Shown here in pieces: positions 12,744 to 53,244 of a DNA stretch of 64,000 bases. The stretch's first letter is position 1. Each line of letters starts with the position of its first letter. This DNA comes from Paralichthys olivaceus (lineage: Eukaryota > Chordata > Actinopteri > Pleuronectiformes > Paralichthyidae): NCBI RefSeq assembly GCF_024713975.1, contig NC_091103.1, positions 4,096,001 through 4,160,000 on the forward strand. The letters run 5' to 3'. A program made the translations under genes and the position numbers. The notes beneath the pieces are model-generated. The model was not told the DNA's origin, made no database searches, and was given only the letters and a program-made list of their open reading frames with translations.

Positions 12744-12753
12744 ATGGACACAG
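12744..12753 (+). CDS. pou2af2: pou2af2 coding exon 1 (10 nt)
   Basis: ATG GAC ACA G followed by donor gtgaga. Phase 1 joins to 'aa tat tcg' of exon 2, giving MDTEYSKRVYQG. The choice rests on phase, the strong donor and the matching tiny first exons of the two paralogues. An upstream non-coding exon or other start cannot be excluded. Confidence 0.72.
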
Positions 12754-12801
12754 GTGAGACTAAATTGTTCATATATTGATGTCTCTCATTCTGTTGCTGA
12801 A

Positions 12802-12848
<47 letters not shown>

Positions 12849-15800
12849 TTTTACTTTTTAGATTAAGTGCATGGGAACAGTTTAAAGTGTATTCTGGATG
12901 ACATTATTGGACGACATCCGTGCAAATCAACAGTCTCCTTTGCTGATGCTAATATCTCATAATAAGTTGATCAGTTAAGTGTCATCAGACAAGGACAAAA
13001 GTCATTTTTGTTTTAAATTTACATATATCCATGTTTGATATTTGAACATTTGTAATGTCATTCATAACTTTAAATATGCAATAACTATTCACAAGATGAT
13101 AGATTTCATAGCTTATCGAAAAGATCCATTCAATCCGTGATCTTTGGTTTTTTTGCATGCAATATTCATCTGCAAATTAAATTTTGCATTCTCATTAATG
13201 GTTCTGCTTCCTAGGAATGTCTCCTTCTCACATGCAAACGTTTGAGATTTATGAAAAGCAACGTAATATCAAATGATCTGCTGTCATGATGCACGCTCAC
13301 AGTATTTCTAATTTTTATTTAAATGTTTGATTCTCTTGCAATACTGTTTTTTTTTTTAAACGCCAGTCTTCCTTTAGTTTGTGAGCAGGTGTTTGTAAAT
13401 TGCATATTTTTAAACCATTTGCATCGACCAAACCAAAGGCAATTTCCATGGCATTTACACACCAATCCCAAAGAGTCATTCTCTTATCCTATATGCATAA
13501 AACTGTGAAACATTCAAATGAACACACATTTGTGGGGATGGATGAAAATTTGTATGAAGTTGTGTTGCAAGTCAAACTGTTTCTGGATTTGTATCCGATG
13601 TGTATTCACACTCTCTTCTTCTGATCTGTCCAGAATATTCGAAGCGAGTGTACCAAGGCGTCAGAGTCAAGCATACAGTCAAAGACCTGCTGGCAGAGAA
13701 GAGATCCCGACAGACAAATGGGCCCAGATACAGTGTAAGCACAATCTCCTCTAAACTGCTCTGCTTTTGTTCCTTCTTGTCTCTTCCCACTTCATTTGTC
13801 TCCCAAACCAAACAGCACGGCCACAGTTGACATTCTGTTGGGCAACACAATTAAGAGGTCGCTTTTAAAGAATCTCTTCTCCTTGTTTACATTTCGTCTT
13901 GTTTTGTGGACCAACGATCCATGGTGGATCCATTGACCGCCTGTACCTCCCCCCTCTGTCTCCGCTCCCCTCAAGTGCTTGCAAAGCCAATCTGTAAATA
14001 GCCGAACGTGGTGTGTGTAGAGAGAGACACAAAGCGCCAGGGCCCATCCTGACCTCACAAAAGAACACTGACACAATGATCGCAACGGCGAAGGCCGTGA
14101 TCTCCCAGAAGCTGGCCCGAGGTGGAGGCAGGGGTGTGGTGGGAGGATTGAGGTGGACGGGGAGCATAGAGAACCAGAAAAAGGGCAGTGTAGGAGGCTG
14201 TCTATGCAAAGTTTGATCCATGCACACCTGCCAGCTGACATTGTCCTCTGCTGTGTTCAGGCTGCAGACAAACCTCCTATTGTTGTCTCAGAAACACACA
14301 CACATGCAATCAGAAAATAGACGTCTGCATGCACAAGCAAGACGGGCTTTTCATTTTCCACAAACTGCCTGTCAAAAGGCTTTCACACAGCAGTGTTCAC
14401 TGTTTGGTTTCTGTTCAGCATCGGCATGTCCACTCTATAGATATGCAGCCCGCTAACCACCGAGGTAATGAGGAGACTGCATGAAACACACAAGAGGAAA
14501 TACAATTAGATTTAACAAAAAGAATGTCCGAAAATGACCCCTCTCTAATTCAGGAGTATAAAAAAAAAAATAAATGTTGAGGTTTGTAACTTGAGTGCAT
14601 GTAGAAGAAAAGATGTCATCCATCAGGTCGATGCACTGTGATGTGGAGGATTCTGAGTGAGAAGAGAGACTGGTGGTGATTTAAACTCAGATTTTGTGGA
14701 GCTGAGCTGATGTGGGAGATGAAACACAGGCAGCAAATTAACGGTAGACTTGTAAATCAAATGAAAAGACCCATGAACAGACCCAAACTAACAATGAAAT
14801 GATCCTAACATTAAGTATCCAGCTCCTGATCCTGTCTCTGATGTAGAGCTCCATTCTTTGCCAAAGATTTTTTTCCCTAAAGATTTCTTCATAACTATAA
14901 CCTCAACTGCATATGACTCAATGTTTATCAGATGACGACATGAAATGTTCTGCTGAGACATTGTTGTCCTGAACATGCTCAGGCTAATTTCTACTCTGAC
15001 ATGAACGGAGCAAAAGCAGAGTGTTTGGAACGTGATGAGCTCCATGTTGGAACAATATGTTCATGCAAGTGGAAGCATTGTGGGTTGGAGAGGAAATAAG
15101 TGTCTCTGTCAGGGGTCAATGAGTCCACAGATGAGACAGCTTCTGCCTTTGAGTCTTGAAAAGAGGAATGAATGAAAAACTCTCTAACCACTGGAATGAC
15201 AGCATTAACAAAATACTTAAAACCCTCTTTCATTTTTAAAAAATATCAAATTATTATAGATTCCAAAACGTTTACAATGAAGAAGCATCTTTAGATAAAA
15301 TAAAATCAGCATTAGAGCGAACTCTATGTAATTCTTGACGAATTAAAATTGAGTTAATAATCAATAAAACACACCCTTTGACTCCAAAACACTGAGGAGC
15401 TGTGCTGCTATAGTGTCAGTCTAATATGATGAGAAGCTAATGGTGGATAACTTTAGATATTGTGATGTCATGAGAGGATGTGTCATAGAGGGGAGATACA
15501 TTCCATCCCGGTGGCTGTCGCAAGGACTACAACCCACCATGGCCTCCATTAAAGAACTACAAAACCCATAGTCAGCAGGGCAGTCAGAACAAGGATTGTT
15601 GCCCAGCTGAACGATATTTAGCTGATCGCCCCAGGGAGGGGGCTGAGAGGGAAGTGAACAGAGCAGATGAAGAAGAGACTCTGAGGTGGAGGGAGAGGCA
15701 GTTCTGTTGTTAGTTGACAATGAAGACAGTGAACGAGAGTTTTTGATTCAAATACGTGGTTTTGTTCGTTTATCTGCTGACTACAAGAGTTAAGTTAACC

Positions 15801-17522
15801 TGTTAAAAGAAAACAGTGGATTTAAGTTGGAAAGCAAAGCCTGTCTGTCTTCATTTCCTGCACCCGCACCTCAAAAGCTCCAAGAGGAAAGATCCCGACC
15901 TCTCAAGACATCACAATATTTACAGCCAAGTATGACTGTTCACTACTTATTCTACCTTTACTCTATGTTTTTATGTTCACTGTTACAGCCAAACTCTCTC
16001 ATTAAGGCAGTGAGACTGTGACTGTTCCATCAACACACAACTTTAAATAATCTGATGCTGTTTTCTTTGGTTAAAGCATTTTCACATTGTCCATAGGGAA
16101 TATAATCAAACTGGCACTCACTCATTTATAATACACACCAGCCATTGTTGTATTATTGTTTTACACACGCTTTCATGACACAGATACAATAACCACAGTG
16201 AGCGTACCACCTGCATCTTGTCCAGCAGAGAAACCAAAAAGAGAAACCTTTTCATGCTAACATTTTTAAACAACACTATGCAACTTTCCCCACTTAAAAT
16301 AGCAGCTTTAATATTAGTTTGAAGTTAAATTGATAAGAAAATGGTTCTGCTTTCATTCACGCTCCTCACACTGAATGTCTGTTCCTGCTTCACTTAACTT
16401 CGGTGAGCGGGTACAATCTCCTGTGAGATGCAATGAACTGACTGACGGTCGTAGCTTCGATTGGTGCCCAGCAAGTTCACAAGTTCAGTATGTTAGAGAG
16501 TGAGAAAAGCCAATGAGGGAAATTGTAAAGCATGGAGTTGAAGAACTGAGCTTAGAAATTGTATTTACCATTTGAAAAGGGAGTATCCTCTCATTGTCTG
16601 AAAGAGACAGGTTTAGAAAAAAGAATTTAATATGGCCCATGTGTAGAAAAATTCACAAAATGCACCTTGACGTTGGTTGCCACCCGTCAATAAACCAAAA
16701 GAGGAAGAAGCAACGCAGAGCTGTATATCAGTTCAAAAGACATAGAAGCCATTAAAACCATCGTTTATCTGAAAATTCAGCCAGGAAACCGTTAAAATAT
16801 GAGGAATTCTAAACAGAGTTTGGTAGATTTGTAACAGCCGCAGCTCTTCTGGTTCAGGAAGCCGGGGATCATGGGTAATATCCTTCATTCCGTTGTGTTT
16901 CAGTTCAGTGAGTGGGACTACGCAGTCGTAGCTCCACTCAAGACATTGATAGATTTAGATTTTCTCAACATGGAAACCATTTGATTGCTCTGACACAGAG
17001 CCACACAGAAATAATCACTGTGTTGCTGCAGAGGGCGCTGTTGCTCGGTAACGGTTACACAGTGAATAAGTTGAACGTGTGTGGTCCATTGATGTTTTCG
17101 AACACACACGGTTCTTCTCACTCCAGAGCCAACCCTGTAAACCAGCTTTGTGTAGCACTGTCACTGCTACTTGAAACACACAGTTAGTGTCTTCGTGACT
17201 GAAGCTCCTGCCCCAACAATGAACAGTTTCACATAGATCCACCTTTATGCAAAATCCAAATCAACTGGGCCTGGACAGCATTTTTATACCTGACAGAGAG
17301 CATGATGGGATGTCACTTGCATTAGTTACTGCTATTTCCTGTTTTTTTACTCACCTTTAATCGTCACCCGTCTGTGTCTGACCTGCAATTCAGCATGTTT
17401 TCGATGCAACGTTCACTTGTGTGATTATAAATGATGCATGAAGACCTAATGATGCACAGTAACATCCATCCACGACTTTCTGATAGTTAATGCTTCTCTT
17501 TCATCCCTGGGAATAAAAGGCC

Positions 17523-17567
<45 letters not shown>

Positions 17568-20500
17568 AACTCTGACCACAGCGAGAGTGTCCTCATGTTG
17601 GAACACGGAGATAATATAAAGATCTTACATCATTTCTCTTTACTCAGAACATCTCTTTTAAAGCGGACTGCCTGAACATGCTGATGTTACATAAATGATC
17701 CACGACGGTGACAAATGAATTTCTGTGTGATGTAGAAGAAGTTCACACTTCACAATTCCTCACCTCGCTAAGAGCTAAAAGCAACACCAATGTTAAATCA
17801 TATCATCTAGAAACTAATTATTTCTGCACGGAAGCATGTCTGATAAAATCAAACACAATGGAATAGAACCAAAATAATATGCAATATGGTTAATTTTCAA
17901 AAATAAAGTTGTGAGAAACTGAGAACTTGTACTTGAACTGTATGTTTCAAGTAAGAATATTCTTTAAAAAGATGTGTGTGTAAACTATATTTATAAATGA
18001 TATCTATAGGAAGAGTTTTTCTGTGAAATAAGGTGAAGTACATCCATCATCATCACCCCCCCCCACCCCCACAAATGCACACACGTTGTCTGACTGTCAG
18101 GGCTTGAGTGTGCTGATTTCCATACGCAGCCTTCAGAGATGCACTGAGCCGTACCTGGGCCACATGAGGAAGTCTTGGCACTGGCAAATCACATTCAAAT
18201 TCTGCCCTCAAAATTTGCTTGCCTCCCTCCCAACACGGGCTTAATATCAACTCTTTCATGCTGGCAATATGCAAACAAGCCTGTCCTGGCCAACCTTGTC
18301 CTTGGGACCCTGCGCTGCACGTCTCTGCACTATGCTCCGACTGAAACTGCAGGAATGAAAAATGATAGAATATGTAAGAACATTACATTAATGTTAGTTA
18401 AATATTTAATATGTTCTTTTAATTGAAGATTATATGGAAATGCTGAGCAAACAGGATGGAACACAGGGATTTCACCTCTCCATTGTATTATTTTCCCTGA
18501 AAGTTAACAAATCGATAGGTTGTCCAGTGAATTTGAAAAAAAATTTCTAAGATACTACAGTGAGATGAGAAATATTAAATAAAATATTGTATGTGTCAGA
18601 GTAAAATTAAAGAGCAACTTTAAATGATCACATGATTATCAACATGTATCATCTTATATCTGACGTATTATTAATTCTTAAAAAAAGAAATACCAGGAAA
18701 AATAAAATAAGAATAATAATACAAACATAATTTTACTTCAGTACTGTAGGACGTAATTTGTTTAACTAATTCTTGAATGTATCATATGTCAATACAGTAT
18801 ATTAATAAATATAAGATAAAAGTAAACAGTTAAAATGGAAAGGAAAAGAGTTGTGCTGGTGAAAACGTAGAATAAAAATCCACAAATTCAGACCAGATGT
18901 CTGGAGCCTCACTCTTCTCTTCTACTTTTAAATATGATCTTACTTTTTGTGTTCACACACGTTTGTGGACTTCTGGTCACTGTTTGAATTACCCTGTGCT
19001 GTCATGTCTTTGCAACACTAAATTTCTATTATAATAGATTTTTGCCATTTAACAATTATTATGATTAAAACAACAATAATAAGAATAATTATTATACAAA
19101 TGGAATCACCCCATCTGTATTATTTATTCTGTGTTTTTGGGATTGTGCTGATTCCTGGGCCTGTACACTGAGTCTATGTATTTGCTGCACTGTCCTCTGT
19201 CGTCCAAGCACAAACAAAGAAAAGATCCTTTACACACATTTTTGTCATTTTAGAGATTTAAAAAAAATTGGTGCTAAATTAGAAATAAAACCAAACCGAA
19301 TAATACAAGATCAAAATCCTTTGTGTGCTTCAACCTCCTCCAGGGTTACTGGGGGTCTCAAGGTTCTGGCACTGTTGAGGGAGACTGGCTGTAAATGGGA
19401 CGAACCCTTCTTGAGCTAACTTGCGCTAACCGTCTAAATTTGGTTGCACTTGTTGAGCCAACATTATTATGAAAAGAGATGTTACAAAAGAACTGTCTTA
19501 ATGAAGGCCAGGGTTTGAAATAAAAAAAAGTGGCATCATGAAATAAAACTTTAATTGGATGAAATGTTATGAAACAAAAGCTCATGACTAAGAACATTAA
19601 AACCTCACGTGAGACTGAAAGAAACACTTTCTCCTTTGTCTCCATTATAAACACCCTCACAGGTTACTCTATTATTATATTACATTGTTAGGTTGCATGA
19701 TTCACTCCCACTCTCATGTTTTTACCACAGGGAGGATCGACCACTCCGCCTTCCTTTGTTCAGATGCCAGGTGAGAATCTGCTGCTCATAGATCTTCATC
19801 ATTCACTCTTCACTTCTGCAAAATACATCTGCCAACACAGTCTCCATCAGCTCTGTCATGATCACTCTGAGTTTTACTACAGACCCCAGTTAATGTTCTG
19901 ACACAACCTGTGTAAGAGCTGTACTCCTGCTGTGAAGATTTGATGTATGTTGTTCCCTGCAGGGTCTCACATGTTGCCCAGCTACTATGGCGTGAGGCGT
20001 CCCTTCATCTCCGACTCAGACTACTGTCCGTCCACCAAGCAGTTCTCCCCTGACGTCTACACCTCCAGCCTCGGAGGTAAACCTCTGGGCTGCGAGCCGT
20101 CCGCGATGACCGGCTACTCCTCCCTCATTGACAGCTACTACCCAGAGGGCTATGGTGATTACCGCAGCGCCGCCGCCTTCTCCAGCTCTGGAGGATCCTT
20201 CCTGCCCTCGTCGGCCCTCTCATCCCTGCTACCTCCCTTCAACGGAGAGTCCTCACATCTGTTTCTGGTAGGAGGCAGTATCAGGGTTTGTGTCAGAAAG
20301 CAGTAATTTACAGCTCTTATCTAAACAAGGTTACAAAGTGTTTCACATAGTCCAGAGACTTTCTTAAATAAGATTTAAAGAGAAACCCAACAGCTCCCAC
20401 TCAGTGAAGAGAGAATGATCATGACCATTCAACCTCACAAATCATATGTGATTAATGCAATAACTCATGGACTTAGGGAAAACATATAAATATGTGTTCC

Positions 20501-22152: not shown

Positions 22153-22380
22153 CTGGATGACAGGCTACTGGGTCAGAATATAGAGGAAGGTGGAAGTTTC
22201 ACAGACAGTGCAGAGACAATTCTGGGACTTGTTTTGTAAAAAGGACAATTTTAATTGCATCCATAGCATCAAGGTGTCCATATGTCCATATTACAGTGTG
22301 ATGGCAACTTTCCTATTTATTGTCATTTTTGTTTGGTTTATATGATAAAGAGTGGAGAAATAACTTGTGATAAGCTCTAA

Positions 22381-22386
22381 AATAAA
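22381..22386 (+). terminator. pou2af2: pou2af2 polyadenylation signal candidate
   Basis: AATAAA lies 229 bases after the stop codon. A further candidate lies near 23165 (gtaataaagc), so a longer 3' end is possible. Confidence 0.55.
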
Positions 22387-22399
22387 AAATGACAAACAA

Positions 22400-25338: not shown

Positions 25339-25345
25339 ATGTCTG
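25339..25345 (+). CDS. pou2af3: pou2af3 coding exon 1 (7 nt)
   Basis: ATG TCT G followed by the consensus donor gtgagt. It joins 'at aag ccg' of exon 2 to give MSDKPRVYQG. Seven bases is extreme, but phase, donor and the family layout all agree. Confidence 0.75.
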
Positions 25346-28300
25346 GTGAGTTTTCATGTCGGATTTTCATCTGGAAATCACTTTTTCGTTGCTTTTTCTC
25401 CTGTATGGGGCAGAAAAGACAAAAGAGAAAAATGTAATGTTTAGTGGCAAAATTTAATGCAAAGCAGAGCCGCACGTGAAGGTGACTGGGGTTTCTTCTT
25501 TTTATTGCAGGTGTAGATTTAATAGCAGTTTGACGGTATTTATAAAGAATGGCCAGCAGATAAATAAACTTCAGTGCATTAAAGTTTGCAGTTTATTGCC
25601 ACATGTCTCCTGGTTGTTTTGGGCGGATCAGGAGCGTCTGCTTTTCTCACTCAAACACTCCTCTACTGCTTTACCGACGTTTTATAGATTCATGTATGTT
25701 TCATTCTCGTGATCGCAGTCTATCAGCACACGTCAGCATATCTGCATGGTCGTTTCAAAGAGTTTACTTTTAATTAAAGATTAGTTACGGGTGGAACAGA
25801 CATTTCAGCCGTTTATACCTTCAGCCATCTGCGTAACAGGACGTTTTAAGTAACCGCGTTGAAGTGGGATGTGTCTGCTCTGTAATTTTGGCCCACTATT
25901 TGCCACATTTAAGACAAACCATGAAGTAGCGTTTAGATGTATGAATATTTATCAGATGGGTTTCGCAGTCGAGGCTTCGTCTCTTATCTAATGACCTTTT
26001 TCCAAACGGCTCGCCACTCCTGAGCGCTTTAAATGACGCCTTTGGGTCTAAATTACGCGCACCTATGCGAGGCGTTCTCTATGTTTCCTTAATCAAGATT
26101 CACCTATAGGAAAACTAAGGTCAATTGCCTATTTAAAAACCATAGTATTTTTACAGTCAAATACCCAGAGTGGGAGGATGGGGTGATTTGAATAAAGTTA
26201 CATGATTACTGGCTAAGAGCTTGAGTTTTGGTTTATAAACAACATAAGTCTGAAATCGTTCTTCATTTTTTTTCCGCCGTGAGACAACAACAACGTGATC
26301 GATGCAAAGCACGAAATAATATTTTGAACTAAAAGACTCCACGCGGGTTTGACTTTACGTTTGCGTAAAAGAGCAGGGATGTTTTAAAGATCGCCGCGGC
26401 GCTGCTTTAAACGTTTCCAGCTTTACTTTAGAATCGACTGTAACTCTTATCAACTTTACCCCAGATCTACATCTGCGATGTGTTAACCGAGAAAAGTTTT
26501 ACGTTTTAGCCTCCGATCGCTTTACTCCGGACTCTCTTTTCCCCTTGTCTTTGTGCGTTCTTTGGCGCTGCGCCTTTCTCCAAATTTAAGAAACGATCTC
26601 ACACACATTTCAATCCTAACATCGATCCAGATTTTATCATCTCTACATTCAAATCGCTCAGATCTGCGTTTATGATCAGAATCGTACACTTACGGTTTCT
26701 CATTTTGTGCCGCTTTTCCTTTGTTTCCTCGTCTGGACGGGCTGGATCGTACACACACACAGGGCGCAGCTAACTACTCGGCTGACGGCGTAATAGGACA
26801 CGCCGAGCCATGCCGTAAAGAGCGAGCCGTGGCCGGGAGCACCAGGGGGGCTCAGGCAGGGACAAGCGGTCAAAAAGTAGCCAGAGCCACAGCGCGCCCT
26901 GAGCACCGATAATGCGCTTTTACGCACGAATTATTCGGACACAAATGTAGACATCGAAGCGCCACATATGGTTTTAACAATGTATTGTTTATTATATCAT
27001 GCTGTGCGTCTGTGACCAACATATTCCCACATAAAAAGTCTGACATTCAACAGTTTAATAGGAGGAAAATAGGGCAACTTAGTCACGATTGTAAGTGAAC
27101 AGGAGGGAGAAGTTAAATGTGAAAGTGTTGGTGACATATAGGGAAAAATCCACGACATTTTATTTTCATGTTTTGAGTTTGAGGGGGAGAAAGCACTTTG
27201 TGGGCTGCAGATGGAGGAGGGGCTGAGCAGTGGTGGAGAGGAGCCTGTTATTGTCTGTTATTGTCTGCTGCTTAGTAAACATGAGCGGCATGCTGTTCTC
27301 TTCATCCAGATAAGCCGAGGGTGTACCAGGGCGTTCGTGTGAAGACCACGGTCAAAGAGCTGCTGCAGAGGCACAGAGCCCGGGAGGCCAACAGCAAAAA
27401 AGTGAGACAGGTAAAACCCCCTTCCCACCTCACCCCACCTCTCTCTCTCCCTCTCTCTCTCTCTCTCCCTCTCTCTCTCCATCCTGCTGCCACTCTACCA
27501 TTTTTACACACAAAGCAGGAGAGCGACAATAAACGGTCCCTGTCAATGACTGGCAGATAAGCACGCACATCCTGACAAATACACAGAGTCTAACTCATTC
27601 AACGCCAACTGTCCTGATAAAAAAATATCTAACACTGTTGTCTCCCTCCTCTCCCTCCTGATGGACAGATTGGACCGATATCCCAGGGTTGCTTGGATCT
27701 CCAGGATCTTTGCGCGACCACTTTTGCAAGTAAGTTCCCTCGTGGCAGCAACAGTAAAAGATCTGTGCTGATAAAAGCCATTAAATTTACAGATCTGCAG
27801 CAGCTTATGGCTCCACCCTGAGCTGTAGCCGCCACAGGCGCCCATATTTAGAATGTAGCCCACAAATTGGAGAGTGCAGATTTGCATGCAGCTACGCAGC
27901 TCTTCAAATGCGTTGGCTGCTGGAGCGATGACATTACTCTCTGGTCTTTAAGGCCTATTTAAATGTCTTCCCGTGGTCTGATTCCACACAGAGACTCGTG
28001 CAGCTTATTCGAATGCACCAGTGGCCATTTATTCTCCCAAGAATATTAATATAAATGTCCTCAAACTTTGGAACGCTTCTGTCTGTCTGCCAGATGTTTA
28101 GATTGGGATATACTCCATGGATGTTGTACTGAACCCGCAGTCCACCATGTAGGCTTTATGCACGTCAACGTTTTGTTTATTTTTTGCGATATTTACGCAC
28201 AATCTCTCTTTCAGACGTAAACCCGTCAGGTCGCTATGTGCTCCCCCCTCCGTCCATCACTCCAGCGGATCAGAGCAGCTGTGGCGCGCGAGCTCTCCAG

Positions 28301-29535
28301 CTGCGAGCCGCCCAGTTCCAGGTACCTGACAGCTCGTGCAGCATCCAGATGCAGGGCGACGCATTTAACGACATCCATCAGCAGGTTAGGGACATGACGT
28401 ATCCCAGCAACTGCTACAGTGACAGCAGCAACACAAACAACAACGATAACAACAACAACAACAACAACAACTGCAACAGCATCGGTGGCGGCGGTTACAA
28501 CACCTCCCTGCCTCCCTCTCACTCCCTCTCGCTGCAGTGGCATTATGGACTCTCCCCAGAAGGCGAATATTATGGGCATGAGTTGGTACGTTTCTCACAC
28601 AGACACAGACACAACTCCACGAATGAACACAAGAAGACAGTGTTTTTTAAGGAACTGTAATTACATGTCAGTTATAAACCTGATTTTATCTGCAGTTCTA
28701 ATCTCTGGGGTCTTATCTGAGCAGCTAAACAAACAATCATTACAAAATCATTGCAATTAAATCTCAATGTGTAGTTGACAACAATTAAGTGCTGCGCTGT
28801 AATTGAAACTGCAAAAAAGAAAGACAGACAAATATTAAAACAGACCAATTAAAGGTCTGGCATACATGTTTATCATTAGCATAGATGTTAGGGTAATGAA
28901 TTCAGCATGTGCCACTTTTTATTTGTGCAGCCTCTCTCAGAGCATCTCATTTTGTGTTAAAATGCAGAATTGAGTCATTTTAGATATGAACATCTCACCT
29001 GAGGATCATATTTTTTTCAGTATCTTTAATAAAGGAATAATTGTTAAAAGAAAAACACCACTCACAGGCGTCCCTGCTTGAGCCTGTGGCCTCTACTGTC
29101 AGTATTGATGTCACATCACATGACATGACATTACAAAGTCATGCTAAAAATAATCCTCACCATCCTGCACGTCTTCTTCTCTTTCAGGCTCCCAGCTCCC
29201 CACCAGAGTCGAGGAAGCTCTGCAGCCCCGTGGATCACAACAGCTACTCGCCGCAGGACTCTTTCTCCTCCTCCTCCTCCTCCTGCTACGACTCGCCCAC
29301 CAGGATGGAGTCCAGCCACCATGGCTTCGCCTCAGAGCACTACCACTACCAGCACTGCAACCTCCAGAACTGTTACTGCCTGCCCCACTGTTGGCCAGGC
29401 CAGCAGGAGAGCTTCTCTGCCCCCGAATACATGCCTTACTACAACCCCACAGACTATCCGTACCCCTGCACAGTGGAGGAGAACTATTTCATGAGGGATA
29501 TGCAGATCCCAGAGATGTGCTACAACGTGCTATGA
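25339..29535 (+). CDS. pou2af3: POU class 2 homeobox associating factor 3 (OCA-T2), five coding exons
   Basis: Joined exons 25339-25345, 27310-27410, 27669-27729, 28215-28585 and 29188-29535 give 295 aa. Residues 1-36 are the OCA peptide: MSDKP, then RVYQGVRVKTTVKELLQRHR. Mammalian POU2AF3 (COLCA2) likewise starts MSG.P.VYQGVRVK, which decided the start codon. The middle has LPPPS, a long asparagine run and SLSLQWHYGLSPEGEYYG. The last exon is serine/tyrosine rich with a CNLQNCYCLPHC cysteine cluster, similar to a CYC..C feature I recall near the end of the mammalian protein, and ends EMCYNVL. OCA-T2 is known as a POU2F3 coactivator of mammalian tuft cells; the fish role is inferred. Exon phases match both neighbours. 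Identity is strong for the family, good for the subtype. Confidence 0.9.
25830..26940. promoter_or_regulatory. CpG-rich segment inside pou2af3 intron 1
   Basis: CG dinucleotides are clearly denser here than in the surrounding AT-rich intron, especially 26340-26420 (gatcgccgcggcgctg) and 26750-26935. No convincing exon is visible on either strand. It could be an internal promoter or enhancer of pou2af3, or a promoter for an antisense transcript. In human, COLCA1 is transcribed divergently from the COLCA2 region, which makes the second option worth testing. Confidence 0.4.
27310..27410 (+). CDS. pou2af3: pou2af3 coding exon 2, OCA peptide
   Basis: The acceptor is 'ctcttcatccag' and the donor 'gtaaaa' after 'agacag'. 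101 nt encode KPRVYQGVRVKTTVKELLQR and HRAREANSKKVRQ. An alternative donor (gtgaga) lies 9 nt earlier. The later one was chosen because it restores the 101-nt length of pou2af2 exon 2; both keep frame. Confidence 0.9.
27439..27480. repeat. (CT)n microsatellite
   Basis: CT-rich simple repeat with CCT interruptions in pou2af3 intron 2. Confidence 0.9.
27669..27729 (+). CDS. pou2af3: pou2af3 coding exon 3 (61 nt)
   Basis: The acceptor is 'cctgatggacag' and the donor the consensus gtaagt. It encodes IGPISQGCLDLQDLCATTFA plus one base. Phases 0 in and 1 out are needed to join exon 2 (phase 0) to exon 4 (phase 1), and they match exon 3 of the paralogues. The acceptor is weak in pyrimidines. Sequence homology to mammalian exons is not obvious to me, so the call rests mainly on phase and donor. 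Confidence 0.72.
27880..27887 (-). promoter_or_regulatory. Octamer site in pou2af3 intron 3
   Basis: A perfect ATTTGCAT (ATGCAAAT on the minus strand). A single 8-mer can occur by chance in a window of this size. Confidence 0.25.
28215..28585 (+). CDS. pou2af3: pou2af3 coding exon 4 with polyasparagine
   Basis: The acceptor is 'caatctctctttcag' and the donor 'gtacgt'. 371 nt encode VNPSGRYVLPPPS through EGEYYGHEL. Between about 28435 and 28475 an (AAC)n tract encodes a run of asparagines broken by one Asp. Such a codon repeat is prone to length polymorphism. Confidence 0.9.
29188..29535 (+). CDS. pou2af3: pou2af3 terminal coding exon 5
   Basis: The acceptor is 'cttcttctctttcag'. 115 codons follow to TGA (29533-29535). 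It begins APSSPPESRKLC, contains a TCC-repeat serine run and CNLQNCYCLPHC, and ends IPEMCYNVL. Confidence 0.93.
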   Translation, partial: APSSPPESRKLCSPVDHNSYSPQDSFSSSSSSCYDSPTRMESSHHGFASEHYHYQHCNLQNCYCLPHCWPGQQESFSAPEYMPYYNPTDYPYPCTVEENYFMRDMQIPEMCYNVL

Positions 29536-37695: not shown

Positions 37696-37722
37696 ACACA
37701 CACACACACACACACACACACA
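37696..37722. repeat. (CA)n microsatellite
   Basis: About 13 CA units. Confidence 0.95.
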
Positions 37723-38660: not shown

Positions 38661-38716
38661 ACCTTGGAGAAAATAGCAAACTGAACAGTCTCACCACGCG
38701 ACCGACTGAGGTGCTA

Positions 38717-40300: not shown

Positions 40301-40314
40301 ACTCTTTTGATTCA

Positions 40315-40322
40315 ATGCAAAT
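40315..40322 (+). promoter_or_regulatory. Octamer site near the MITE right end
   Basis: Perfect ATGCAAAT; another lies at 41241-41248, 0.9 kb beyond the pou2af1 3' end. Chance occurrence is quite possible. Confidence 0.2.
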
Positions 40323-41780: not shown

Positions 41781-41786
41781 TTTATT
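41781..41786 (-). terminator. pou2af1: pou2af1 polyadenylation signal candidate
   Basis: TTTATT on the plus strand is AATAAA on the minus strand, 383 bases beyond the stop codon. It is the nearest canonical signal I see. Confidence 0.55.
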
Positions 41787-42168
41787 GTACTGTGGTGGCA
41801 TCTATAATCAAATGAATCTATAATGAACCAAAGTACCAGAAATGAAGTTTCACACACAGCTGAGGCGTTTGGGGCCTGAGGCTCTGGGAGCTTTGCCCAG
41901 TTTGTCCATTTGGTATTTCAGCAATGACTTTTTAAAATTACTTTGGCCACAGCTACAACAACAAGACCAATGTTGAAATAAACTGAAATGAGAATGACAC
42001 TAGCGGTGCAATGCTGAAACAAATTGCATCCATCATTAAGATCAGAAATCACACCTGTGAATAAAAATGTATGTAAGATATTTCTAAAAGAACACGGAAA
42101 AGAACCCTGGGAAAAACACAAAGAGCACAAATACAGCTCTTCACACACAAAAATGAACACTCATAGTT

Positions 42169-42597
42169 TTAGACATTGGGTATGAAGAGTGAATTGCTGT
42201 ATGAGTCTTTTTCTTCCACTTCACCATCCTCCTTGGGATCCTCTAGAAGTTTATCCAGTAGGTTTGGTGATCCCGGCTCAATCCCCAGATCTTCATCCAG
42301 AGACTGGTCTTGTGGTTCAGGGTTCAGATCTGAACGCTGAGCGAGGTCAAGGATCTGGAGCTGAGGATCTGCACCCTGGGCCTCCAGCTGAGGGATCATG
42401 GTGGTCACAGACATGGACAAGGGCATGTGCACCAGAGGTGGGCCGGACAGGGCTGCTGAGACTGGGGCGAACTGGACCCCCGGGTTGGGCATAGTAGATA
42501 TGGTGGTGAGGGGCTGGGTCCAGGGGAGGTAGGTCAACCCTGAGTCTGGGAGCTCCATCTGAGGGAAGGAGGCCGGTGCTGGGGCCACTGGTATGGT
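42169..42597 (-). CDS. pou2af1: pou2af1 terminal coding exon 5
   Basis: The minus-strand acceptor is 'gatctgtctgtag'. 142 codons (TIPVAPAPASFPQMEL to SYSNSLFIPNV) follow to TAA at 42171-42169. Carries the proline-rich stretch and the acidic C-terminal region. Confidence 0.95.
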   Translation of the reverse strand, partial: TIPVAPAPASFPQMELPDSGLTYLPWTQPLTTISTMPNPGVQFAPVSAALSGPPLVHMPLSMSVTTMIPQLEAQGADPQLQILDLAQRSDLNPEPQDQSLDEDLGIEPGSPNLLDKLLEDPKEDGEVEEKDSYSNSLFIPNV

Positions 42598-43967
42598 CTA
42601 CAGACAGATCAGCAAATGAGAATAAAAATGTTGCTGTTGATCACCAAGGAAATAAAACTTGCAAAGATGCAAACACACTTAAAACTTTATATATATACAC
42701 ATTGTTATGAGTGACTCTACTGAGCATGAGACAAGACAACCATAGGCTTTACATAAACAAGCACGACGTGTCTCCACTTCCTCCCACTTTCCAGAAATGA
42801 AGCCAGATCCAAACACTGCATCCTGCACATGTGGATCTAGAGTCTGCGCTGTAACGATTGGAGGATGAAGCTGTGGTCCCACCCTTTAAAAAAGCACTTG
42901 ACCAATCGTGAGTTAGTCTCAGCTGTCAATCATGATGTTTCACTCTGTTTTTACAGCATCATTTACATCATTGCTGTTGAAAAACGTGGTCATTCATTTA
43001 TTTAAAAATCCAGGGGCCTCTGAGCTCTTTTTCTCAGCCAACGAGCTCCTGCAAGACAGAAAATATTTGTCTTGTCCTGTCTGTCGCTTGGAACTTTTTG
43101 ATGTAGTGTATTTTTTGTACGTTTACTCATGTGAGGGAACAATCAAGAGAAAAATTCATAGATTTATATTAAATGGTAAATGCTCTTTATGTATATATCT
43201 CTTGTCTCGATAACTACTACTTGATAAGTTTTTGCCATTCACATACACACTCATATCTGCAGCCCCGTCTCTGTGCAGTAGATCATCAGAGATGCAGACC
43301 CTCACTTAAAAACAAACACTATTGTAGGAGACGGGGCTGTTCCTCACTTTCAAAATTGAATTTACTCACCCCAAAGTTAGTGAGCAGCGGTGTGTGTGTG
43401 TAGGTCAGCATGGTGTAGCTGGGGCACAGAGTCTGCATGTACAAGTCTGCGGTCAGTGTGGTGGCTGGGTAGGCCAGAGTCTGAGCTGAGGGTTCCTGCT
43501 GGTTGTATTCAGGTGAGGACCAGGGTGTTATGGCAGGCTGCAGGCCAGCGCAACTGGCCAGGAATGAAGGTTTCCCTCCCGTGCACTGCTGCCCTCCATC
43601 TGCTGTGCTGCCACTGCTGCTGTCAGAGCCAAAGGCGACTGGATTACAAACAGAGGCTGAGTGTCAGTCTTTGAAAAAACATGCACATGCTTCACTTGCA
43701 GGAATCAGTTCAGATAAATATGTTGTCAAATACCTTGTGTGTATGATGTCAGGTTGTTGCGTGCGACCTCATCCTAAAAAGAAAATATGACATAAATTCT
43801 AAAAAAGTGTGTCGAGCATTTCAATAATGGCAGTAGAACAATTAGCACATGTTGCTGCTGCAGAGTGGGACCATGTTGATGTATAAATATCTGCTATTTA
43901 CACTTGTACCGATCACGTCCAGGTGTGAGCAGCAGAAGAGATTACAACTGTTGTGTCTGTGTGTGCG

Positions 43968-44049
<82 letters not shown>

Positions 44050-47000: not shown

Positions 47001-47501
47001 TTGGATTCTATTGGAACATAACATATTTCATGCGTAGCATCAAGTCAGGTTTCATGTTTTTCTTCCTCCCCCTCTCTCATTGCAGGGTGTGTATGTGGAC
47101 AGTTTGTGCGAACGTGTCGAGTCATTCCTCTGCTGGTGTGGAGGAGTAATACATAGCATGTGGGAGGGCTCTCTGGCAAGGCTGCAAGTTATTTTGCATA
47201 GGGCTGTGTGCCCAGCCCTGGAGCCATACAGGTAATGGTTGTAACTGTCATGGAAAAACACCTGGATTATATAAGGTTAGAATCCCCCCTCCTCGCTCAG
47301 GGACAATCATGGGGTCCTGACTGCTCCTCTCCCCACGCAGACCCTTTTCTCCCCCCCCCCAGTTTTTCACAATGCCATGTTGTTCCATTTGGTTAAAATA
47401 ATTCCCCACACAACAAATCTGCAACAGCAACTCAACAGAATTCACCTCTGCAACCAACGACCTGCATCTGGTGCAGATCATTTGATGTCTGTGAGACAGA
47501 C

Positions 47502-47534
<33 letters not shown>

Positions 47535-50500
47535 GAGCGTAAGGATTATCGGGGGAATTTGTCGTCATGATGGTTCAGATGAGTGAAGAATGAGACTGAG
47601 GTTGATAAATCATCACAATCAAGGAAACGTTATTAGAAGTGAAGCTTTTTCAGACAATATCCACACGTCAAATAGAAAATGCCAAAACTGTTGATTGCCA
47701 TGGAGACTGTTTTACCCCAGAAAGAAATCAAGACCAAGCTTTCACAGACAGAATCCTGACAAAGTAAATCCTGCACTTTTCCTTTACTTAGTACAAACGC
47801 TCATTCGTAGTGTATTTTCTGGATCCTCTGCTCTTTCCAAACACAGCATTGATTTGCGGTGTCAGATTAGTCCGTCTGTACATGACCCTGAGGAAGCATT
47901 GCTCTGTTTTCAAATAGTAACAATAAATTGCCCACTGCAAATTTGTTTAATGGCTCATCAAGGTACAAGGGAGAATGTGGTTTAACAGTTCAGGTTCTTT
48001 GGAAAAGGTGGAGGTGGTGTTGTGTAAATATATGAGGAACGATGCAGACATCATTCATTGTCACTTGAATCTACAAGACTTCTTATGAATCAAATACAGA
48101 TCTATTACAAGTCCATACAGGCCAGAGAAATGTATCATTTAAATACTGAAAGTTGGTAAAAAAAAAAGAAAAAAAAGATATGAAGGAAATAAAAAGTCAC
48201 AGAATTCCCTCCAAAGTATATCAATTTAAGTACAGTTAAAAATGAACTTGTTGAACTTTAGCTAATTTAGAAAAGATGAAAGTTATGCTAACAGAAATAA
48301 TGAATTCACTCCTAAATGCGAAACACTTCCTGAGTTTGATTTCAGACTGGGTTTCAAAGTCTACATCAGTGTTTCCTGTTTTGTTACTGTGTGATCAGCA
48401 CAGTACTTCTGATCTAAAAGTGAGGCTGAGGCAAATAGCACTTAATAAAAGCAACATAACATGTCAAAATCGAGTTGAGGCTTAAAATGTGGATGACTGT
48501 ATAGACTTTTTAATGAACTCTGTATTATGTCATGTGTCACAGTGCCCTCACCGCAGCAGGGGGAGCTGTCTTGGTGCTGTGCGACTCCAGACTCCTCTTC
48601 CTCCTCAGCAGCTCTTTGACCGGGTCCCTTACTCTTACACCTTGGTATGGTCTGGACCTGGTCAGTGCTGGTGTTGGTGCTGGAGAAGGAACAAAAACAA
48701 AATGTGAAACTACATGGAGGATCAATCTTCTGCTGTTGTGAGCCAATCTGTGTTCTGGGTTCATAGAGTTCATGAGCATGAACCACAACATCACCCACCT
48801 TGAACTTCTTTATCCAAAAACAGAATATTTGACAATAAGTCACTTTTAGGTGCTGCTATGCCCAAAAAATTGGAAAAGGTTTTCATTTTGTTGCCACAGC
48901 AGCTAAATATTATACAGTCAAAAGCTCCAGAACAGCTTTTAATAGACTTTATTGTTGGGTTATGTCAAAATGTATGTATATATATGTATTGCAAAAGTAT
49001 TCTAAGTACTTATTTGTGTATGTTTAAGAAAAATGCAGATGACAGAAAAAATGTATAAACATACAAACGCAAAAAAGAAATGAATCAAAGAAAAATGTAT
49101 ATGAAATAAACATTTATATATATAGCATCTTCATTTAATATATATATATATATAATTATTTTATTTTGTTTTCTAATATTTTTGAGAAGTAAAATCAAAG
49201 AAACCTCCCAAGTTAGAATTACATTTATTCAGTAAATCTCGTGCAATAACTCAGCCACAGCGTTCCTCTCTGTCCACCAGAGCAGGGCAGTCATTACTTC
49301 ACAAGGCACTTGAAATAGTAAGGTTCTTACAATAGGTGCTTTAAATAATATAGAGAGAACCCCTTCAGTTCCCACAATGAGCAAACACTCGGTGAAAGTC
49401 ACTTTCATCTAACTCAACAACATATTTCGATAATATTTGATTAGTTGCATTCTAATGTCTTTGGAGGAATCGGCTGTGTTTGTTGTTTCTTTGTGAACAC
49501 TGCTGTCTCTAGCGCTGACAGTTTTTCTTCCAGGAAATAACACCGCCAGTTGCCGGTGGAGCCACACTGACGGAGACTTGAGGCTATATGGTCTCCCTGT
49601 ACCAGAGCGGCCCGGGGCCACAAAATAAATGAGAGTAATGGCGACACTTATGGAAATATATGATCAGCTATCAAACCATCTACAGGTCAACTATGAGCCC
49701 TGTGGCTCAGTTTGTCTTATGCTGGGCTGCAAAAACATTTTGGAGAAAAAAAGACTTTCCATAAAACAGCCTACTGCCTCATTTAAATGTACCATTTTCT
49801 TTGATCGCTGATGTGAAATCACTCCCAGCAGAAAATTTTAGATAGACAGAAGATCCTGTGGAATTTACGTCAAACTGTGATTAAATTCTGAATTTGTAAA
49901 TATGTGCACTTAGGCCATCAGAAATGTTGTGGCGTGTACTCAGGAATATGGTTGTTGTCATGATAGGAAAAAAAAGGTGTGTGGTCATATTTTTATGGTC
50001 ACCCCCCCCCCCCCCCCCCCGCGAGTTTTTAGTTGTGATTATAGAATATATTATAGGGACGCCAAGGTTTGTGTGTGTGTGTGTCTTGTGGGCGTGGCCT
50101 TCCACTCCTGGCACCTGGTCATTCTGCACACCTTCCATCTGCTCGTCAACCCTGCAATGCAAATACCCTGTACTCCTGCCATTCCTCGCCAGACAGTTCC
50201 ACCAGCTCAGTCGGTATAAGCTGCTTTGAACAAACCGCTAGTTACTCTAGTTACTCTAGTTACTCTAGTTACTCTTGCAAACTACTAGTGTTCATAATAC
50301 TCCTTCATGTGGCCAGGACTTCGTTGCCAGTGTCGCCTACCACCGCCTGCTGTGCCTGCCTCCCCCCTCCAATTAAACAAACACCCTGACAGAAGTCAAA
50401 TCTGATCTGCCCATGTGACTGTTCCTATTGTACAACTCAAGTCCCATTCAAACAATGACTGGGATTACTGGCATGAGATCACTCAGGAGGGTGTTGCTGT

Positions 50501-53244
50501 TGCTTTGGTAACTGACGAGTGGGCTATTTTTCAATTGGACCCATGTTGAAAGTATCATGTGTCCAAATCGCACAAAACTTGGCACTGCACTTTCCTGGGC
50601 AATGAACAATAGACATGCAAATATGAAGCTGATAAAAATGCGTTCCATATGCAGCCAGACAAACAGAAAGTCTAACTGTGAGACAGACAGACGTTTGTGG
50701 AATTAGAAGGTACTCGGTTTGACTGATTGCACACATCTGGGCGACAATCATCAGCTCAGACAGAATGAGTTTTTGTTCACCACCATGACAGTTCCCTGCC
50801 TTCTCCTCTGACCTTTATCCTGTTACTGTTGTTTCCGTCTCTCCCAGTGAGAGAGGGGGAGACCTGTGGTCCAGACTGCTGCTGTGTCTGTCCTCTATAA
50901 CCCTGGCTTTAGAACAACTTGACCTGATCTTGTCCAGACTCCTACACTGAAAAAACAAAACATATACATTCACAAAAACAGATTCCAGACAATGTTATTA
51001 AGGTAAATACGATATGAACTGAATGACCCGCTTTATATTTATTCATTTTAAAAAATCTGTTCATATCTAAAGAAAAATGTTGAGATGTTATGAAAAACTT
51101 AATGTTTATTATGTAAATAGAACTTTGAAAAATCTGTTTAATTCTACCCATTCTGTACAGCTGAGTACTGATTTAGTGATGAAATGAATCATGCATAAGT
51201 TGTCTTAAGAAAGTGCTTTTCATTTGAAAACTACATGGTTATTATGTCTGGTTTACTAGTGTTGTCTCCTTTTGGAATTACTTTAACAGAATGTTTCCTT
51301 AATGAGAAGAGGCAGAGAAGAGCAGCAGTCTGGTCAGGTTTGCTGATTGAATCATCTTTATCAAGCTAGCTTACAGTGGTGGGATGTAACCAAGTACATT
51401 TTACACATATCTTTACTTTACTTCAGTAGATTAAGTGTACTTTTCAATTTTACTCCACTACATATGTCAGCAAATATCTGTATTTTCTACTCCGCTACAC
51501 CTTTACAATGTACTGTCACACGTTCACAGATGAAGAAACACTGTAAATGGATTCAGAAGAGACTTCCATCAAAACTCAGCCATACTAATACTTAACCATC
51601 GTATTAGGGAATAGGCTGCACTTATAAAGTACTTTTACTGTTAATACTTAAAGTATATTTAAGTGGAACAATGTCTGCAATACTTTTACTTGAGTACATT
51701 TTTGTTGGTTTATGTATACTGATATGCCCACCCACTTCCAATAGAAAGGTAAAGTGCCTTCAACAAGCACTTGAATGCTTCATACTGTACATGACGTTAT
51801 GTATGAGACTAAGGCCGGGGGGGAAGTCAGTCAATGATTCCTTAAAATGACCAAATATTTGTTGTCATGGTAAAAACGTTATGAAGACCTATCCATCCAA
51901 ACAACCCCCTCCTACTGCAGACTTTGTCACTCTGTATACTGGGTCACCAGACCTCCTCCTTTTGCCCCTGTCAAAATTATGACCTCCAGAGGTTACATAA
52001 CAATAAGATGTTCGTAATAAGGTGCTGCACAAATCCCCTGTGGCGTCTCTTTTCACAGCAGAACAGTCAGGACTGGTACAGTGTGAAGCTGGTGTGAAAT
52101 TGCTCAATGTGGCGTTACAAGAGCAACTCTAGAAGGTCAGGAAATAAGGCTGTCACACAGCCAATGGTAACAACAGATTTGTAAAGATTCCTGGCACAGG
52201 ACTGAAGGAGTGTGCTGCAAACAGGGGAGTGGTTCTTATCATGACAAGTGATTTTTCAACAGTGCAAACGAAAAACCCCACAAAGACAAATGGTGCAGAA
52301 TAAAAAATAGGTTGATATATAGTAAATGATCTCTAAATTGAAAGTTATCTAAATAGAGGCTGTTGTTTTTCATACCCCTCCATTTTAAGTAAATCTCACA
52401 CATGAGCACACACAGACAAATAATCACCATGGCACATGCACGGGGACGTGACGCAAAAGAGGAAGCTCCACAGCTGTGCCGTCTTTTGCTGTAGCAGAGG
52501 TCTGTCTCCATTTTGCATATCAAGATTACAAGCCAATAGAATTATAGAGCCAACTTCCAAAATACCATCTTCCTCTTTCCAAAAGAGTCACTAGCTACAA
52601 TACTGATCCTGACATAGTTCACAACAGGAAGGATTATCGTTAGTGTTCCAAAAATCCCCCGATCATTCAGTTAGGTAGGTTATGGTGGGAGAACCACAAC
52701 CTGTGTAATGGTTATGGCTTTACCACATCTGTCTGATAAGCAAAAAAATAGTGGTAAATGAAGTTTCAACTAATAAAGTTACAACTATGGAAATGAATTA
52801 AGTTCAGCAAAATCAAATGTTTTCATCCCAGCAACCACTCATCACCTTTAGTAATCAACTCGCTCATTATCCACCGAAAACTGCAGAAATTAAATTAAAT
52901 TACCTTCTCAAAATGACATGACGCTTTTATCTGAAGCGACTTCCAATAAGTGCATTCAACCATGAGGGTACAAACCCAGAACAGCAAGAATCAAGTAAGT
53001 AAATGTAAACCTCAACGTGAAAAACTGAATTCAACACACTGTACATAGGTTTCGGTGAAACATCTTGCTGAAAACATTTTTAAGACTTTTTTTTACCTCC
53101 TTCACTTAAGTCAAACTAGGTTTAATCACCCAAATCATAGACTGTACATCAGTAAACGTTATATCAATGACAATCAACATTACGGTTCATGTAACTCATG
53201 TAAACAACAAATGATGTGATGTACTTACATTTCTCCCAGTGCAT
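42169..53244 (-). CDS. pou2af1: POU class 2 homeobox associating factor 1 (OCA-B / BOB.1 / OBF-1), five coding exons
   Basis: Minus-strand exons 53244-53229, 48679-48552, 43773-43734, 43638-43370 and 42597-42169 give 293 aa. The start reads MHWEKSP, like the MLWQKP start of the mammalian protein. Residues 14-33 (RPYQGVRVRDPVKELLRRKR) are the OCA peptide that in mammals clamps OCT1/OCT2 POU domains on ATGCAAAT. The middle has ITPWSSPEYN and LTADLYMQTLCPSYTMLTYT, matching the mammalian TPYTEY and DMYVQPVCPSYTV region. The end has GLTYLPWTQPLTT and an acidic LLDKLLEDPKEDGEVEEKD, like the mammalian IDKLL-acidic tail. The human protein is 256 aa. The nuclear coactivator role in B cells is established in mammals. 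The gene converges on pou2af3 across a 12.6-kb gap between stop codons. Confidence 0.95.
43370..43638 (-). CDS. pou2af1: pou2af1 coding exon 4
   Basis: The acceptor is 'tttgtaatccag' and the donor the consensus gtgagt, both on the minus strand. 269 nt run AFGSDSSSGSTADGG to HTPLLTNFG. Contains DLYMQTLCPSYTMLTYT, the best match to mammalian OCA-B outside the OCA peptide. Confidence 0.94.
43734..43773 (-). CDS. pou2af1: pou2af1 coding exon 3 (40 nt)
   Basis: The acceptor is 'ctttttag' and the donor 'gtattt', on the minus strand. It encodes DEVARNNLTSYTQ plus the first base of a valine. Phase 0 to 1. Needed to join exon 2 to exon 4 in frame. Same length as pou2af2 exon 3. Confidence 0.85.
43957..44047. 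repeat. (GT)n microsatellite
   Basis: About 40 GT units with a few GC interruptions. Cysteine/valine and threonine/histidine frames across it are artefacts. Confidence 0.97.
44699..44889 (-). CDS. Possible terminal coding exon inside pou2af1 intron 2, gene unknown
   Basis: On the minus strand the acceptor-like 'gcgtatctttcag' is followed by an open frame of about 63 codons ending in TAA at 44701-44699. The peptide is strongly charged: IDVVVLHDELPGGH, then EETEEREG, then VIELEGKLCLLRDQR and VKAAKMSDMVKQACRKK, and looks like a helical or coiled-coil C terminus. It shares strand with pou2af1 but is not in its frame plan and does not resemble any OCA protein. It may be the last exon of a nested gene, a transposon-derived exon or a decayed copy of an exon from elsewhere. 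I do not recognise the family. Confidence 0.35.
45547..45765 (+). repeat. Dispersed teleost repeat ('caggattacgcaaaact' family)
   Basis: 'agcaggattacgcaaaacta', 'ggatttccacaaaatttggt' and the closing 'cttggcagaggtatgcactc' are in the order typical of a common fish interspersed repeat. The middle is deleted. Confidence 0.65.
46045..46245 (+). repeat. Second copy of the same dispersed repeat family
   Basis: 'cccaagagggttttgttttc', 'ctgtctgtctgtgggattat', 'ggagcacgagccaaggaaga', 'ttttggtgcagatccgggta'. It preserves the middle part that the copy at 45547 lacks. Confidence 0.6.
47511..47537. repeat. (GA)n microsatellite
   Basis: About 13 GA units in pou2af1 intron 2. Confidence 0.95.
48552..48679 (-). 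CDS. pou2af1: pou2af1 coding exon 2, OCA peptide
   Basis: The acceptor is 'tgttccttctccag' and the donor 'gtgagg', on the minus strand. 128 nt encode PTPALTRS, then RPYQGVRVRDPVKELLRRKR, then SLESHSTKTAPPAA. Phase 1 in, 0 out. Within YQGVRVRDPVKELLRRKR the Arg-Asp replaces the Lys-Glu of mammals. Confidence 0.95.
50002..50020 (+). repeat. C19 homopolymer
   Basis: Nineteen C in a row in pou2af1 intron 1. Confidence 0.9.
50085..50395 (+). mobile_element. Possible LTR-type fragment with a 9-bp tandem repeat
   Basis: 'gggcgtggccttccactcct', 'ctcgccagacagttccacca' and 'gcctgcctcccccctccaat' recall fish LTR elements. Inside lies agttactct repeated four times (50240-50275). Ends and target duplication were not found. 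Confidence 0.25.
50512..50712 (+). repeat. Dispersed repeat with 'cacaaaacttggcactgcac'
   Basis: 'atgtgtccaaatcgcacaaa', 'caatagacatgcaaatatga', 'gacagacagacgtttgtgga'. It resembles a known kind of fish interspersed repeat and its 3' end matches 34690-34725. Confidence 0.55.
51374..51705 (+). repeat. Dispersed percomorph repeat ('agtggtggaatgtaactaag' family)
   Basis: Starts 'agtggtgggatgtaaccaag', contains 'ttactccactacatatg' and 'ctactccgctacacc', ends 'tacttttacttgagtacatt'. This run of tac/act-rich words is one of the most frequent repeats in spiny-rayed fish. A short related piece is at about 60668-60770. Confidence 0.75.
53229..53244 (-). CDS. pou2af1: pou2af1 coding exon 1 (16 nt)
   Basis: On the minus strand ATG CAC TGG GAG AAA T followed by the consensus donor gtaagt. 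The final T joins 'ca' of exon 2 to make serine: MHWEKSP. The match to the MLWQKP start of mammalian OCA-B and the phase 1 donor decided this exon, 4.5 kb from exon 2. Confidence 0.88.

Follow-up and report, generated by a model that had tools for sequence, protein, structure and literature searches.

The OCT coactivators of human are encoded by one cluster at 11q23.1 that holds POU2AF2 (OCA-T1), POU2AF3 (OCA-T2) and POU2AF1 (OCA-B). Their clustering on chromosome 11 and their partnership with POU2F3 are documented (PMC13043367), and the accessible text of the same paper places the rise of OCA-B in jawed fish, reports that lamprey yielded no orthologue and names no source gene. A related peptide occurs in IkappaB-zeta (NFKBIZ), a dual NF-kappaB/POU coactivator, in which the OCA motif is reported by PROSITE (PMC12807641) and is described in a review as binding POU factors (PMC11393961); the accessible parts of both sources give the motif without a stated origin. 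The locus compared here is a stretch of 64,000 nucleotides (nt) from the flatfish Paralichthys olivaceus (NC_091103.1, hereafter C11, positions 4096001-4160000; position 1 is its first letter), referred to as the window. The window carries pou2af2, pou2af3 and pou2af1, a conserved and known arrangement that is real and correctly read. The new point is a predicted neighbour that combines an OCA peptide with ankyrin repeats, together with an exon plan shared beyond the cluster, and this neighbour hints at a shared origin of the OCT coactivators and the NF-kappaB inhibitors.

The genes of the cluster, rebuilt from genomic DNA by GT-AG borders and open frame, are pou2af2 on the plus strand (12744-22152), pou2af3 on the plus strand (25339-29535) and pou2af1 on the minus strand (53244-42169). 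All 15 rebuilt exons have GT-AG borders, and each gene reads in a single open frame, with predicted proteins of 295, 295 and 293 amino acids (aa), respectively. Each has five coding exons, of which exons 1-4 end in phases 1, 0, 1 and 0 (phase is given throughout as that of the exon end). The exons are:

12744..12753, plus strand, pou2af2 coding exon 1, 10 nt, ends in phase 1; sole candidate at its own donor strength in 6 kilobases (kb)
13634..13734, plus strand, pou2af2 exon 2, OCA peptide, 101 nt, phase 1 to 0; top solved match 9pfp_B POU2AF2, E 3.3e-13
19731..19770, plus strand, pou2af2 exon 3, 40 nt, phase 0 to 1; rebuilt model
19963..20267, plus strand, pou2af2 exon 4, 305 nt, phase 1 to 0; Pfam PF17721 over residues 51-295, 276.8 bits
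21721..22152, plus strand, pou2af2 terminal exon 5, 432 nt, stop TGA at 22150-22152; rebuilt model
25339..25345, plus strand, pou2af3 coding exon 1, 7 nt, ends in phase 1; MS(D/E)KP common to human chain 9pfn_B
27310..27410, plus strand, pou2af3 exon 2, OCA peptide, 101 nt, phase 1 to 0; top solved match 9pfn_B POU2AF3, E 3.2e-10
27669..27729, plus strand, pou2af3 exon 3, 61 nt, phase 0 to 1; rebuilt model
28215..28585, plus strand, pou2af3 exon 4, 371 nt, phase 1 to 0; rebuilt model
29188..29535, plus strand, pou2af3 terminal exon 5, 348 nt; matched by a provisional human tail, E 7e-4 (single comparison)
53229..53244, minus strand, pou2af1 coding exon 1, 16 nt, ends in phase 1; W and K common to 1cqt_I, one of two candidates
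48552..48679, minus strand, pou2af1 exon 2, OCA peptide, 128 nt, phase 1 to 0; top solved match 1cqt_I OCA-B, E 6.7e-9
43734..43773, minus strand, pou2af1 exon 3, 40 nt, phase 0 to 1; rebuilt model
43370..43638, minus strand, pou2af1 exon 4, 269 nt, phase 1 to 0; Pfam PF09310 over residues 9-216, 114.4 bits
42169..42597, minus strand, pou2af1 terminal exon 5, 429 nt; rebuilt model

An earlier note made by a model from the letters alone had placed the three genes at these positions, with first exons of 10, 7 and 16 nt, OCA exons of 101, 101 and 128 nt, third exons of 40, 61 and 40 nt and the same four phases, and the rebuilt models agree with it on every count. The tiny first exons were scanned for as ATG-plus-donor candidates within 6 kb 5' of exon 2, compared at the strength of the chosen donor; the chosen exon has no competitor in pou2af2 and pou2af3, and in pou2af1, where the donor is weaker, it has one. 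Residues of exon 1 recur in the human structure chains for pou2af3 (MSEKP vs MSDKP) and pou2af1 (the W and K), while the aligned stretch of pou2af2 begins 3' of exon 1, which leaves that first exon without this support. Exons 4 and 5 of all three genes are free of stops in the frame used, a state reached by 0.75-7.6% of base-shuffled copies (2000 shuffles); exon 5 of pou2af3 is also open in a second frame. A short AAC repeat at 28436-28471 encodes a poly-asparagine run in exon 4 of pou2af3.

Gene content, exon plan and orthology can be read directly from the sequence. In phmmer searches of solved-structure chains, each fish OCA query returned three matches, such that 3/3 fish genes match 3/3 human chains (OCA-B, OCA-T1 and OCA-T2) through the N-terminal OCA peptide, and the human orthologue ranks first each time (pou2af1 with 1cqt_I, pou2af2 with 9pfp_B, pou2af3 with 9pfn_B). 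These matches bear out the view of the earlier note that the genes are tandem relatives and that OCA-T members occur in fish. A tree of OCA peptides, which that note suggested building, was made by neighbour joining (26 columns, 500 replicates) and pairs fish with human by gene: pou2af2 with OCA-T1 in 496, pou2af1 with OCA-B in 476 and pou2af3 with OCA-T2 in 408 replicates. Identity between fish and human over the 26 columns is 92%, 73% and 73% for pou2af2, pou2af3 and pou2af1. By the structure matches and this tree, orthology with the human members is one-to-one; the fish genes pair with their own human orthologues, and the duplications are therefore older than the fish-human split. The same pairing rules out a recent triplication specific to fish. 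The cluster is thus very probably the fish orthologue of the human chromosome 11 cluster, in which pou2af2 and pou2af3 most likely serve pou2f3, and pou2af1 most likely serves pou2f1/pou2f2. The human genes presumably have the same order and strands (+,+,-) as those of the fish. The chief use of the cluster is as a clean set of fish genes for work on tuft cells and B cells.

Several points weigh against this assignment. The gene models are predictions from genomic DNA alone. Pfam calls pou2af2 (PF17721, 276.8 bits) and pou2af1 (PF09310, 114.4 bits), but scores pou2af3 at 25.6 bits against the PF09310 cut-off of 25.7 and would not call this gene by itself. The published OCA motif, (R/K)xYQGVRVKxxVK(D/E)LLxx(K/R)R (PMC9576728), was written from human proteins; pou2af2 fits it exactly, whereas in pou2af3 the last (K/R) is His, and in pou2af1 the Lys that follows YQGVRV is replaced by Arg. 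Provisional queries for the human neighbours RDX, BTG4, SIK2, PPP2R1B and FDX1 found no match in the window and 80 kb on each side, of which only the right side is informative because the left 80 kb is all satellite. A difference from the human cluster is the strongly diverged tail of pou2af3, with 24% identity over 131 positions to a provisional human tail.

The earlier note held that sequence outside the OCA peptide cannot be aligned among the three genes and that the shared phases are the best evidence of their kinship. The first statement stands for the pairs with pou2af1, in which 101 and 153 of 300 shuffles reach the score of the post-OCA alignment, and is less secure for pou2af2 with pou2af3, a marginal case (11/300). 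The second gives way to the OCA peptide, which matches the human chains of the other two paralogues at phmmer E-values of 4e-5 to 9e-3 and is the stronger evidence; the plan, moreover, seems to recur in nuclear IkappaB genes. Under phase frequencies that we assume to be 46/33/21%, four phases would be common to three unrelated genes with a chance of ~4e-4. Two of the four shared introns flank the homologous OCA peptide, and the remaining two alone give a chance of ~0.02 under the same assumption.

The claim that these three genes form the complete family does not hold, given the published OCA motif of IkappaB-zeta and a predicted fourth gene found when 80 kb on each side of the window was examined. 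The fourth gene starts on the plus strand at C11:4164891, 4.9 kb past the window end, and lies head-to-head with pou2af1 at 15.6 kb from the pou2af1 start. Its second exon encodes the OCA peptide MYDSEKVYLGVRVKMPVRDLLRNKRLAQ (matched at E 1.7e-5 when 30 kb were searched with the pou2af2 peptide), which carries the motif KVYLGVRVKMPVRDLLRNKR with one departure, Leu for Gln; 0/200 shuffles reach its score. The ankyrin repeats have as their best solved match IkappaB-zeta (9bor_A, E 1.3e-37). The gene was read up to C11:4173744, so that the predicted model is partial and 3' exons beyond this point are not included. Predicted phases of its first four coding introns are 1, 0, 1 and 0, and its exon 3 has 25 nt; another of its exons has 47 nt. 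Linkage of an OCA-ankyrin gene to the cluster sets the fish apart from human 11q23.1, and the fourth gene is not known from mammals. When the genome was searched with the OCA peptides of pou2af2 and pou2af1 and a provisional one of IkappaB-zeta, the queries returned only the genes of the window; they missed the fourth gene as well and are thus no proof that further OCA genes are absent.

In combining an OCA peptide with ankyrin repeats, the fourth gene resembles NFKBIZ, although the closer nfkbiz of the same genome is on C24 and the fourth gene adjoins pou2af1. The two also differ within the peptide: the fourth gene has the Leu for Gln in YQGVRV, and a basic residue at the position where PROSITE notes Ile in IkappaB-zeta (PMC12807641), a column matched through a provisional human sequence. 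Ankyrin trees were built with FastTree and IQ-TREE from six sequences (two rows provisional, one with a missing stretch), and group the fourth gene with IkappaB-zeta as opposed to IkappaB-delta and BCL3 in 96/100 replicates. This grouping would suit a copy of nfkbiz from the teleost duplication that was placed beside the cluster by rearrangement, as would surroundings that look rearranged, where one side is satellite for no less than 89 kb and the other has macroglobulin-type exons. Such an origin is nevertheless rather unlikely, as the fourth gene falls, with weak support (0.80 in FastTree, 59/100 in IQ-TREE), outside the pair formed by 9bor and fish nfkbiz, and has a fuller OCA peptide than the nfkbiz of C24. 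Among 500 replicates of the OCA tree, the fourth peptide joins OCA-B in 256 and OCA-T1 in 148, so that its place is not settled.

Exons 3 and 4 of the fourth gene were first chosen by eye and then sought by a mechanical scan of the 2,956-nt stretch. With donors of at least 8, exactly one pair of exons bridges the frame, and this pair is the predicted exons 3 and 4; when donors down to 7 are admitted, one rival pair of different phase appears, and no single exon fits.

Two more loci came from a search with ankyrins: nfkbiz on C24 (within 9849000-9857000) and nfkbid on C13 (within 11532000-11541500). In the nfkbid gene, which encodes IkappaB-delta/IkappaBNS, the OCA-like helix TVKKLLEEKRRRE is encoded 5' of the ankyrins by an exon predicted to run from phase 1 to 0, followed by a predicted exon of 31 or 34 nt (0 to 1) and one of 188 nt (1 to 0); a mechanical scan of the intron yields two candidates, of which the 34-nt form fits. 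The YQGVRV strand is absent, and on sequence alone binding to the octamer complex is not expected of this peptide. The nfkbiz gene follows the plan only in part, with a phase 1-to-0 exon that encodes TVKELLMLKR without the strand and then a single exon before the ankyrins. At this exon (C24:9855197-9855282) nfkbiz seems to retain no more of the OCA peptide than its helix half, although an exon further upstream may have been overlooked. The nfkbiz of this fish may thus have lost binding to the octamer complex while the gene beside pou2af1 on C11 kept it. Trout is described as having two nfkbiz, two nfkbid and two bcl3 genes, with nfkbiz beside eed, and 'pou2af' has 0 occurrences in the accessible text of that study (PMC10299181).

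The OCA-helix scores of nfkbid (29.8), nfkbiz (25.7) and the fourth gene (32.0) each exceed those of all 200 dinucleotide shuffles. On a profile that includes the fourth gene, nfkbid scores 28.0 and nfkbiz 24.3. Once the six OCA-type exons are set aside, the highest score of any stretch is 22.0 for the window and 19.0 for the loci, which total 266,856 bases with overlapping copies counted. These margins, and the published motif of IkappaB-zeta (PMC12807641 and PMC11393961, each as far as its accessible text goes), speak against mere coincidence, by which the phases of the POU2AF and nuclear IkappaB genes would agree by accident, the helices of nfkbid and nfkbiz would be chance resemblances, and the true motif would be confined to the fourth gene and IkappaB-zeta. 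Coincidence is improbable, even though a 1,0,1,0 run has a chance of ~0.02 per gene (assumed frequencies), the YQGVRV strand is lacking in the nfkbid and nfkbiz peptides, nfkbiz has of the plan the OCA exon only, and an inner donor of near-equal score in the OCA-like exon of nfkbid (5.8 vs 5.6) would end that exon in phase 1 and skip exon 3.

The exon plan appears not to be private to the three POU2AF genes but common to nuclear IkappaB genes, one of them adjoining the cluster. The preferred reading, held at somewhat under even odds, is that the 5' halves share a common descent: POU2AF1-3 and the nuclear IkappaBs (zeta, delta and the fish fourth gene) would be one family derived from a single OCA-plus-ankyrin gene, from which they would have kept three 5' exons: the OCA exon (1 to 0), a short one (0 to 1) and a further one (1 to 0). 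The ankyrin exons may have been lost in POU2AF, or the OCA part may instead have been gained; the octamer-contacting strand would have been lost in nfkbid, and the fish locus would be the surviving junction. The members lie at human 11q23, 19q13 and 3q, which we take to be partner regions of whole-genome duplication. The shared plan is evidence, not proof, for such descent. The inner donor of nfkbid would join the 188-nt exon directly in phase 1, and the helix of nfkbiz scores only slightly above the real background. In the fourth gene, exon 2 spliced straight to exon 5 would also stay in frame; the reading frame therefore does not require exons 3 and 4, and the odds of common descent are lowered for this reason.

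The same in-frame splice would suit a history in which copying or shuffling brought the OCA exon into an ankyrin gene, or did so on several separate occasions; the POU2AF genes and nuclear IkappaBs would then have one exon in common but no ancestral gene. A linked OCA gene could donate 5' exons to its neighbour, and the OCA exon alone is alignable, the tails of the three POU2AF genes being so at most marginally. This course of events is judged rather unlikely, as the predicted agreement reaches past the OCA exon: the fourth gene and nfkbid, like the POU2AF genes, have a short third exon that runs from phase 0 to 1 (25, 31 or 34, 40, 40 and 61 nt) and then an exon that runs from phase 1 to 0. 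If common descent of the 5' halves is true, a single ancestral gene may have supplied the POU coactivators with one of its halves and the NF-kappaB co-regulators with the other, which would give OCA-B a concrete and checkable origin. In the literature searched, whose scope left out most subscription papers, no statement was found of a linked OCA-ankyrin gene or of the shared exon plan, and none of the matches listed joined POU2AF1 with the NFKBID or NFKBIZ symbols.

The partner POU2F factors are present in the genome. A provisional POU2F3 homeodomain used as query gave 28 matches, and four intron-split homeodomain loci were examined. The gene on C15 is pou2f3 (92% and 86% identity to the two halves of the POU2F3 homeodomain), and that on C10 is pou2f1 (81% and 76%, with Oct-1 closest); the second halves of the two have equal bit scores, and the assignment of pou2f3 rests on identity. 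The genes on C13 and C20 look pou2f2-like, by elimination. By homology to solved complexes, the OCA peptide, which lies whole on the phase 1-to-0 exon, would clamp DNA along with the POU domain of a POU2F factor that binds the octamer; the diverged tail, judged by its homologues, would be the activation part that recruits co-activators. Binding, expression and cell type are thus put forward by inference: pou2af2 and pou2af3 most likely serve pou2f3 in tuft-like chemosensory cells, and pou2af1 most likely serves pou2f1/pou2f2 in B cells. A reporter test in which catfish OCA-B gave no enhancement of Oct2-driven transcription (PMC13043367, accessible text) counts against a simple transfer of this mechanism to fish. 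The earlier note saw in the cluster a bearing on whether fish have a chemosensory cell programme, a question overtaken by print: zebrafish intestine has pou2f3-positive tuft cells that are lost in rank mutants (PMC13381698, accessible text), and 'pou2af' occurs 0 times in the main text of that paper. The fish tuft-cell programme is already published and so is not new here; the cluster is consistent with it and is no test of it. A paper on a 3' untranslated region motif (PMC12781889) was set aside as unconnected with the locus, its accessible text being concerned with a single-nucleotide polymorphism of human POU2AF2 tested in zebrafish.

Two further features of the window adjoin the cluster genes:

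12425..12465, no strand assigned, two consensus octamers in inverted orientation, ATGCAAAT/ATTTGCAT, ~0.3 kb upstream of the pou2af2 start codon; may be an autoregulatory site, picked after the fact
25501..27000, no strand assigned, part of pou2af3 intron 1 rich in CpG; in 500-nt pieces observed/expected is 0.95-1.29 vs a mean of 0.39

Three consensus octamers lie within 1 kb around the pou2af2 start, at 12425 (+), 12458 (-) and 13417 (-), and leaving the satellite aside the window holds 9 of them, where 3.8 would be expected. For at least two within 600 bp, as in the pair at 12425 and 12458, P is ~8e-4, uncorrected for the choice of place. The pair may mark putative autoregulation of pou2af2, a suggestion drawn from one species and from a site chosen after the fact. 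OCA-T1 is reported to require adenine at the fifth base of the octamer (PMC13043367, accessible text). After position 9500, CpG observed/expected exceeds 0.75 in the three consecutive pieces of pou2af3 intron 1 and in only two others. Structured RNA gave 0 matches in the window at Rfam gathering thresholds.

The left end of the window (1-9370) is an array of satellite repeats whose unit is 609 bp (shifted by that length, the array matches itself at 82%), in which telomere-like GGGTTA occurs 16 times per kb vs 0.18 in the remaining window. In the left flank, 8/8 pieces of 10 kb are 99-100% covered by 15-mers of this satellite, which thus spans at least 89 kb, lies ~4.1 Mb inside a 26-Mb contig and ends 3.4 kb from pou2af2. 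The right flank has, on the minus strand of C11:4180001-4190000, an open frame of 418 aa with no Pfam match; it includes DWMTEKVD, which we take to be an ATF4/ATF5 motif. The plus strand of the right flank carries exons of an alpha-macroglobulin-type thioester domain (PF07678).

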